Source: Pleurocapsa sp. FMAR1
Lineage (GTDB): Bacteria; Cyanobacteriota; Cyanobacteriia; Cyanobacteriales; Xenococcaceae
Assembly (NCBI RefSeq): GCF_963665995.1
Contig: NZ_OY762512.1
Coordinates: forward strand, 3,224,001 to 3,288,000
DNA length: 64,000 bases
Reading direction: 5' to 3'
The position numbers and the translations under genes were made by a program. This document shows positions 62,183-64,000 of this stretch, piece after piece (positions within the stretch are counted from its first letter, which is position 1; each line of letters opens with the position of its first letter). The notes beneath the pieces are model-generated. The model was given only the letters and a program-made list of their open reading frames with translations. It searched no databases and was not told where the DNA came from.

Positions 62183-62485
62183 TGAGTGGCTTGGTATAGT
62201 TAAAATATATTATTAATTAGGGAATGCGATCGCTATTCGCTACGCTAAAATAGCAGTTAATTTCTTGGTAGCTGTTTATTTTTCTACTTCTATTATTTAG
62301 CTTAATTGATGTCACTCTTTAAACCAAGTGAAACTCTTTAAGAGCAGGAATAAAATTTCTATTTTCATGATTAGATCGACTTAGTTTAATCAGGACAAAT
62401 CTTTGCATTTGTGTCAGATTTTCCCATTTGTACATTAAATGATTATTTGTCAATTTTAAAGAATTAGCGTCACAAATTACAATCG

Positions 62486-62516
62486 GCTACAAGCCCTTCA
62501 TAATAAAGCTTGTAGC
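62486..62516. terminator. Hairpin with T-run inside the putative transposon end
   Basis: GCTACAAGC (62486-62494) pairs with GCTTGTAGC (62508-62516), followed by TTTTATC. It has a terminator-like form and could shield the element from outside transcription. Confidence 0.5.
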
Positions 62517-62823
62517 TTTTATCATACTCCAATAGACTAAAACTAGATTTAAAGAATTAAATGTCAATTCTTTTCCAAGACATTTTTGACTTTAAAAAAT
62601 AAGTGTCAATTTTTTCACTGTTTTATTGCTATCTGAAATACTCAATATATTAAGAAACACAATAAAGCCCATAATCCTTATTTTGAAAGAGCTTTAATAG
62701 TTTTTTCAAGCTCAAATAATAAGTTTGTTTAAATAATTAAATGTCAAAATTTGATGTTGATTTGAGAAAATTTCAGCGATCGCCAGGAAGTTACCGACAA
62801 CAAATGCTACGTCGATAGTATTT

Positions 62824-63029
62824 AACCTGAGTTCGGGATAAGAAAAGGGACAAGTAGTAAGCTTAAAATAATAACAAATTCAGTAAACCTGTCCTATATT
62901 TAGTTTAGATGCTTTGTTTTGTAATGTAGATGATTTTTGTCTTCATTTTGAACCTGAATGGCAGAAAAAGTTGCTAAATCATGAAGGAATAAAAAGATGT
63001 AGAGCCAGAAGAATTAGGAAAAATCTCTA
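62824..63029 (+). pseudogene. IS982-family fragment: end sequence and transposase start
   Basis: Starts with AACCTGAGTTCGGGATAAG, the IS982-like terminus also seen inverted at about 8646. From 62896 a frame reads (I)FSLDALFCNVDDFCLHFEPE then WQKKLLNHEGIKRCRARRIR and a stop at 63029. This is the N-terminus of IS982 transposases, with the start codon changed to ATA. Only about 200 bp remain. Confidence 0.72.
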
Positions 63030-63117
63030 ACCAGGGAGAAACCAAGCATAATAAAAGAGTTGGTTGAATAATTAAACGACAATTATTTAAGACATTTTTC
63101 CATCCAGTTGGAGCATT

Positions 63118-63456
63118 CTATTCAAGATGAGAAGCCCAGTTAAAGTTGCTCTGCTCTATTTCTAAACTAGAGATATTAGATGGGCTCAAAGACAAAAAAG
63201 CTTCAGTATTTAAACTAATCATCAAATAAGCATTCATGATGATTTCCCACCATTTACTAATCTCATCAAATTTGGTAAATCTGTAATTAGTCGGGCCTAG
63301 CTCTTGCTTGCATTGTCGAAAGCCATATTCAACCCATGTTCTCAGTCCATATAAGTTACCAAGAGTTTTTTTCATTTTGTTTCTAGTCTCTTGAAGATTA
63401 GTCATAACAAAAGAAGTTGAATTCTCTGGAATAGTTTCAGGATCGGTAGTTATTTC
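63118..63456 (-). pseudogene. IS701-family transposase, C-terminal fragment
   Basis: The frame on the minus strand carries LYGLRTWVEYGFRQCKQELG then TNYRFTKFDEISKWWEIIMN and AYLMISLNTEAF, the end region of IS701-like transposases, including the catalytic glutamate area. Homology continues upstream of the first ATG (63405) as ITTDPETIPENSTSFVM until an in-frame stop at 63457-63459. The N-terminal two thirds are lost. Confidence 0.75.
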
Positions 63457-63462
63457 CTAGTA

Positions 63463-64000
63463 AGTTCTTTCTTTTCTCGTGCCAAAAAAGGGTTAGCCGA
63501 TATTATTAGTCTCCAGGTTGATTCTCTTGGCAGATTAGACTTAGAATATCTCGAACAAGTCTGCAAACAACGACTATCTCTGCTATGTGTCATGGCAGCA
63601 AATAACGAAATTGCTAATATTTACCCCATTCGAGAAATTGGTGAAATAGCTCAAAAATATAATATTCCTTTTCTTGGCGATGCTTCTCCAGCAGTAGGAA
63701 AAATACCAATCGACTTTGAACAATGGGGAATTACTTATCTAGCAATCTCTGGTCATAAATTTTACGCTCCCAAAGGAATAGGAGCATTAATTGTCAGAAA
63801 AGGAGATCATCTAGAACCGATTATCTTTGGTGGTGGTCATCAAAAAGGATTGCGATCGCGAACGTTTAATGTACCTGGTATTGTGGGTTTGAGTGAAGCC
63901 TGTCGATTAAGAATGTTGGAAATGGAAGAAGATGAACAAGCGATTACACGACTACGGGATAAATTACAGAATCTGCTTCAAGAAAAAATCCCCAATCAAG
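63463..64000 (+). pseudogene. Cysteine desulfurase / NifS-like class V aminotransferase, 5' truncated, runs off window
   Basis: From about 63463 the plus frame reads VDSLGRLDLEYLEQVCKQRL, LCVMAANNEIANIYPIREIG, FLGDASPAVGKIPIDFEQWG and YLAISGHKFYAPKGIGALIV with the PLP lysine in SGHK. It continues as FGGGHQKGLRSRTFNVPGIV, where the family has RSGT, to the last base. About the first 130 residues are missing and the border coincides with the IS701 fragment, so the gene was cut by mobile DNA. The 3' end is outside the window. Confidence 0.8.

Follow-up and report, generated by a model that had tools for sequence, protein, structure and literature searches.

A TGTACA at base 62429 of the Pleurocapsa sp. 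FMAR1 sequence, followed by degenerate copies of a short motif all reading the same way, raises the question of whether a mobile element ends here and, if so, what remains of it. The original prediction proposed the end of a Tn7-like or type V-K CRISPR-associated transposon (CAST), with tnsB, tnsC, tniQ and perhaps cas12k in an interior to the right, unless the end is a stranded one. It was made from the window, the 64-kb stretch formed by bases 3224001-3288000 of the contig. The analysis covered the genome, a single contig of 5,429,540 bases (5.43 Mb). Coordinates past base 64000 are window-equivalent, obtained by adding 56000 to the position in L016.

Our answer is that the feature at 62429 very probably marks the right end (RE) of a 4,983-bp type V-K CAST (62429-67411) that has become defective. 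The element is internally deleted and keeps both ends; it is not an autonomous CAST, and a lone stranded end does not describe it either.

According to the portion of PMC9938897 available to us, V-K CASTs are ordered from left end (LE) to RE as a tRNA gene directed at the LE, an anchor spacer, the CRISPR array, tracrRNA, cas12k, a regulator gene in reverse and cargo, followed on the RE side by tniQ, tnsC, tnsB and the RE itself. PMC11406308 and PMC9527255, also available in part, are further sources on V-K CASTs.

RESULTS

Extent and order of the element

A search of the FMAR1 genome with the DNA of the feature found the inverted partner of the 62429 end at genome 3291364-3291412. The LE tip is at 67411, and a tRNA-Phe gene has its 3′ end 12 bp away. 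TGTACA stands at both tips, and the terminal arms of RE and LE (49 nt) are 86% complementary, so that the matching inverted end sought to the right as a check was found. The features of the locus are as follows.

62429..62748, + strand: RE with TGTACA tip and five TnsB-type sites (62441, 62461, 62555, 62597, 62735); motif scan and alignment to related ends
62824..63011, + strand: IS982-type element, 5′ fragment; 100-aa ORF of a homologous copy
63007..63484, - strand: IS701 element, 3′ fragment, holding motif copy 63070; HMM search and homologous copies
63485..64302 (window-equivalent; ORF 63592-64302), + strand: NifS/DndA-like cysteine desulfurase, C-terminal part; NCBIfam NifS, 1.9e-71
64306-64800 (L016:8306-8800), - strand: DNA-binding regulator gene, 164 aa
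64972-65445, + strand: ORF, 157 aa
65455-65784, + strand: cas12k N-terminal fragment; HMM search
65839-66267, + strand: cas12k C-terminal fragment; HMM search
about 66320-66890, + strand: probable tracrRNA region; corresponding sequence conserved in five related loci
67017-67053, 67090-67126 and 67159-67195, + strand: CRISPR array, three 37-nt repeats
67206-67213, + strand: truncated repeat GTTGAAAG
67214-67230, + strand: anchor spacer, 17 nt
about 67249-67411: LE, with its tip at 67411
67424-67496, - strand: tRNA-Phe gene
67459-67475, - strand: protospacer in tRNA-Phe

Inverted TGTACA-type ends with repeated TnsB-type sites, which mark a V-K CAST, are thus present, and with a second inverted end in place a lone stranded end was rejected. 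The parts run RE, cargo, regulator, cas12k, probable tracrRNA, array, LE, the canonical V-K order. It is this agreement with the published order that makes the 62429 end, opposite the tRNA and the array, the putative RE by position. Together the inverted TGTACA end and the Cas12k fragments bear out both the proposed V-K CAST end and the placing of its interior to the right of 62429. No second copy of the element was found in the FMAR1 genome at E 0.001.

The right end and its sites

With up to two mismatches, AATTAnnTGTCAA occurs on the + strand at 62441, 62555, 62597, 62735 and 63070 of the 656-bp stretch that begins at the TGTACA of 62429, and nowhere on its - strand. For the same length of 656 bp, the rest of the window averages 0.25 copies and holds at most 3 on the + and 4 on the - strand, against the five counted here; none of 3000 dinucleotide shuffles of the stretch held five. 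Over the whole window there are 55 copies against 45 expected, a number reached in 7 of 100 shuffles. The motif, whose equal frequency in other spacers would have counted against an end, is therefore not clearly enriched window-wide; only its clustering stands out.

A further copy at 62461 (AATTAGCGTCA) lacks one base and falls outside the strict pattern; its place is occupied by AATTA[AGT]TGTC in all five related ends compared there. The first ~190 bp of the RE, with four sites, align at 74-78% to stretches in G010:C4, G010:C3, G021:C284 and G026:C44, whose sites are in the same places as here and beside which no tnsB showed. The fifth site (offset 307) has a counterpart at equal offset in one of five related ends scanned (L168). 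Five copies thus look like true end sites and are putative TnsB sites. The one at 63070 is not, because it lies inside the IS701 fragment and IS701 copies elsewhere carry nearly identical letters. Of the six same-direction copies first reported, then, five look like end sites and the sixth is IS701 sequence; three of the positions had been off by one base (correctly 62555, 62735 and 63070) and three were exact.

A broken cas12k

The two Cas12k fragments match V_Cas12k at 8.9e-36 and 2e-50 over profile positions 2-107 and 503-629 of 629, are confirmed by matches to solved Cas12k chains, and are the only Cas12k matches in the FMAR1 genome. Alignment with full-length relatives shows that about 385 residues are gone and that there are two frame changes. 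The suggestion that cas12k might lie inside was right as to the sequence; the gene itself is broken. A search of the genome-contig collection with the C-terminal fragment returned no relatives. Among 27 genomes of the family, FMAR1 included, Cas12k is found in 15 at E 1e-20. Thirteen of 32 Cas12k matches cover at least 591 of the 629 positions, 12 of them without an internal stop, so fragments are common in the family, though some lie at contig edges.

The surviving fragments, compared with relatives, mostly show dN/dS values like those between the relatives: for the Cas12k C-terminus 0.113-0.157 in pairs with FMAR1 versus 0.118-0.187 between relatives, and for the regulator 0.087-0.106 versus 0.093-0.188 where computable. 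The highest value in the set belongs to an FMAR1 pair for the Cas12k N-terminus (0.327), the 157-aa ORF (0.277) and the cysteine desulfurase (0.140). With many dS values near saturation, this pattern agrees with a recent breakage but does not allow it to be dated.

The homing guide at tRNA-Phe

In the available part of PMC9938897, V-K homing is described as relying on a 17-nt anchor spacer whose match lies in a tRNA outside the LE, with a GTN PAM and a distance of 46-82 nt. The FMAR1 guide has all of these: the anchor spacer matches tRNA-Phe at 17 of 17 positions, with a GTA PAM, 64 bp from the LE. We scanned fourteen ends for such a match, namely 13 LE-type ends and the FMAR1 RE as a control, L170 and the RE-type ends of relatives being left out. 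Seven of the fourteen, the FMAR1 LE included, had a GTA PAM next to a match of 17-18 nt, and GTTGAAAG precedes the homing spacer in six of these seven (the exception is L063). Six ends, the RE control among them, gave no match, and L173 gave one of only 12 nt. The same LE type adjoins tRNA-Phe in six other genomes of the family (G006, G007, G010, G012, G019 and G026).

Conservation in relatives makes the region at 66320-66890 the probable tracrRNA. A repeat:tracrRNA duplex within a 220-nt part was equalled or bettered by 107 of 300 shuffled repeats; the wider region gave -26.5 kcal/mol, a value that has no control. Rfam over L016:6000-12000 put the tRNA alone above its cut-off. Among plasmids, array spacer 1 had four weak matches (E 0.3, none covering 80%) and spacer 2 none, and the exact cores of both spacers were absent from viral contigs.

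Other LE tips show some peculiarities. Directly outside the tip, an extra TGTAC, TGTACA or GTACA occurs at L065:4675, L068:2612 and L127:2350, and other end types beside tRNA-Phe carry such extra letters in L058 and L064; perhaps they reflect a target preference or the scar of an earlier end. At L121:14391 (G019:C152) an LE is stranded at tRNA-Phe with polyketide-synthase-like sequence (by eye) nearby; the G019 genome has no Cas12k match at E 1e-20.

Cargo remnant and IS fragments

The cysteine desulfurase fragment is a cargo remnant, with 85-87% protein identity to genes of 391-393 aa in L063 and L060. The IS982 fragment noticed in the original prediction is present at about 62824-63011; the 100-aa ORF of its homologous copy matches NCBIfam IS982 (1e-8) without reaching the curated cut-off. 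For the IS701 fragment, a homologous 443-aa ORF in L137 matches IS701 at 1.6e-73. Both fragments sit where element sequence is missing, and their junction is followed at once by a desulfurase that lacks its N-terminal part, which suggests an IS-associated deletion.

Beside the related cas12k in L060 there is a cargo-like operon (L060:3-9624) of a TPR-CHAT protein, two unknown ORFs, a HATPase/PLD protein with a partial MzaB match (5.5e-18) and a DndA/SspA-like cysteine desulfurase, a possible defence operon.

The regulator and its partner ORF

The regulator gene runs in reverse to cas12k, often with the conserved ~157-aa partner ORF between them. Searching the genome-contig collection found the regulator at five loci (L060:9628-10167, L063:12207-12746, L065:222-758, L067:6522-7034 and L177:2157-2726), and all six including FMAR1 have CAST parts alongside (L177 by eye). 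The FMAR1 protein is conserved in L060, L063, L065 and L067 at 59-83% (57-77% by tblastn, L177 included). In its C-terminal half there are weak HTH matches (HTH_26 in four of five members, HTH_3 in three of five), and ParG, a model of the RHH type, was matched in three of five, in L060 by the N-terminal half. The predicted structure has low confidence (mean pLDDT 65.4).

Three V-K regulator types are named in the available part of PMC9938897: the MerR-type CvkR, and Arc_1 and Arc_2, which are small RHH proteins of 53-72 aa. In contrast to CvkR, the regulator here shows no MerR-type domain: none of the 10 Pfam families matched by any of the five members at E 0.1 is a MerR model. A profile search of solved structures gave seven matches at E 10, none named CvkR, in a collection that may lack a CvkR entry. 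From Arc_1 and Arc_2 it is set apart by their described size, its aligned members being 164-179 aa long with an added HTH. One could go on to propose a Xenococcaceae class of V-K regulators (RHH-like N-terminus plus Cro-type HTH, 164-189 aa) outside the three named in that part of the paper, together with a relic that a related CAST could move in trans; as a joint claim we consider this quite doubtful.

Missing transposition genes

The original prediction placed tnsB, tnsC and tniQ in the interior; none was recognised among the ORFs of the element. We therefore file it as a defective derivative and not as a complete V-K CAST. Nor did tblastn with the TnsB of L067 find a tnsB adjoining this type of RE in the fetched stretches of five RE-type ends (L165, L167, L168, L169, L172). 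Genome-wide, the V-K TniQ of L067 found nothing in FMAR1 or in G024 (81% complete) and had matches in five of six other genomes searched. The L067 TnsB found one 24%-identical protein in FMAR1 and had matches in five of six other genomes.

PF09299 and PF06527 had no match in the FMAR1 genome alone, in a search where no control gave a signal; across the family PF09299 matched in 22 of 27 genomes and not in FMAR1. It also missed the distant FMAR1 TnsB, which scores below the cut-off, so PF09299 alone is no proof of absence and proteins of the lineage were used instead.

The distant TnsB gene, with a weakly TnsA-like ORF, lies at genome 4110211-4112626 (L180:6212-8627, - strand) beside a gyrB-like gene (by eye), with no further ORF of at least 100 aa between the pair and the neighbouring genes. 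We judged this pair unlikely as a helper, its TnsB being only 24% identical to V-K TnsB and closest to I-F3 CAST TnsB (7.3e-66).

Elsewhere in the genome a second stranded V-K-type end occurs at 245294 (L017:5294-5522, + strand). Its identity to an end in L182 (G007:C177) is 72% (116 bp) and 81% (48 bp), and that L182 end is followed ~325 bp later by a V-K tnsB match.

Relatives and known systems

The related loci come from an uncultured Pleurocapsa (L060), Xenococcaceae MAGs (L063, L065), a Xenococcus MAG (L067) and Hyella patelloides (L177), genera which we take to be grouped in Xenococcaceae. L060, L063, L065 and L067 share regulator, LE and tracrRNA region with FMAR1 and, unlike it, have long Cas12k frames, full-length or nearly so; the first three also have the upstream ORF, and L060 and L063 the same cysteine desulfurase. 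Unlike the FMAR1 element, L067 and (by eye) L177 keep tns genes. L067 carries LE, array, Cas12k, regulator, TniQ, TnsC and TnsB ORFs on one contig, and its TnsB matches ShCAST TnsB at 1.8e-110. No RE was found on that contig with the LE-type pattern. At 177 aa and 492 aa, its TnsC and TnsB ORFs seem short, so that L067 may not be whole either. In L177, V-K-like TniQ, TnsC and the start of TnsB were read by eye beside the regulator.

A decayed CAST is also found at G010:C4:67803-69912 (L181), where a TnsB C-terminal fragment (64% to L067) stands directly before a broken Cas12k C-terminus, followed by array and LE at tRNA-Phe.

With CASTs of the ShCAST/AnCAST kind, as described in the available part of PMC9938897, the FMAR1 element shares an LE beside a tRNA directed at it, a 17-nt anchor spacer with truncated repeat, a GTN PAM within the 46-82 nt range, an array of 37-nt repeats after cas12k, and a reverse regulator gene upstream; the place of their tracrRNA is taken by the probable tracrRNA region. 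It differs in that no tnsB, tnsC or tniQ was found, cas12k is broken, there is no target duplication and the length is only 5 kb. The same part of that paper leaves 12 degenerated Cas12k proteins out of its tree, and its degenerate V-K CASTs resemble ours in having a degenerated cas12k beside regulator, LE and tRNA. The FMAR1 element belongs to a known kind and is apparently an inactive relic of it, in a Xenococcaceae lineage.

DISCUSSION

V-K CASTs duplicate 5 bp of target on insertion. The check for such a duplication came out negative, the flanks being CCATT on the left and ATATA on the right. A single common insertion of RE and LE is therefore not proven, and a rearrangement at the RE flank is implied. 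One possibility among others is an inversion with an end at the RE, which would mask the duplication. Beside tRNA-Phe, PII-like, hydroxylase-like and crp genes (by eye) have the opposite orientation to FMAR1 in G017 and G018, two of 14 loci compared; rpsD and moaA were not found in the G017 and G018 stretches.

The missing duplication and this gene block, inverted relative to the tRNA, would also suit an origin of RE and LE in two CAST insertions joined by rearrangement, the 4,983-bp interval never having moved as a unit, as would the five of five RE-type ends with no tnsB in the fetched stretch. We think this rather unlikely, given tips 86% complementary over 49 nt and a canonical order of parts from RE to LE. 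A non-autonomous mini-CAST moved in trans would keep its cis parts (ends, tracrRNA, array, homing guide) and borrow its proteins; the cis parts are here, the tracrRNA as a probable region, and in the family there are relatives whose Cas12k is full-length and whose LE is of the same type. Against it stand the lack of a second copy, of a target duplication and of a V-K TniQ in the genome, and the other decayed example, in G010:C4, is broken differently, which fits decay rather than a maintained form; such a mini-CAST is highly improbable. That there is no transposon at all, and that copies of an AT-rich motif happen to cluster in a spacer, might be argued from the window-wide count (55 against 45 expected) and from the sixth copy being IS701 sequence. 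It has a negligible probability and was ruled out by the second end and the Cas12k remnants; CRISPR parts too lie between the ends, the clustering was unmatched in 3000 shuffles, and homologous stretches occur in three other genomes.

For the preferred reading, an internally deleted V-K CAST, we propose the following history. In an ancestor with the full gene set, Cas12k, tracrRNA and the 17-nt anchor guide would have bound the tRNA-Phe gene at the GTA PAM, and TnsB, TnsC and TniQ would have inserted the element 64 bp downstream, its LE turned towards the tRNA. The tns genes, cargo and the beginning of the cysteine desulfurase gene may later have been lost through deletions associated with IS982 and IS701, and cas12k would have been destroyed by another deletion and by frame changes. 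We infer the order of the losses, the role of the IS fragments and the present immobility; as far as the FMAR1 genome shows, the element looks dead.

The end motif first read from raw sequence marks a real V-K CAST. The element offers an example from a single-contig genome that retains its two ends and an exact homing guide and makes the loss of the protein genes readable. Within one cyanobacterial family, tRNA-Phe emerges as an attachment site that V-K elements have used repeatedly. The lineage-specific two-domain regulator of Xenococcaceae is a less familiar side finding, and a testable one.
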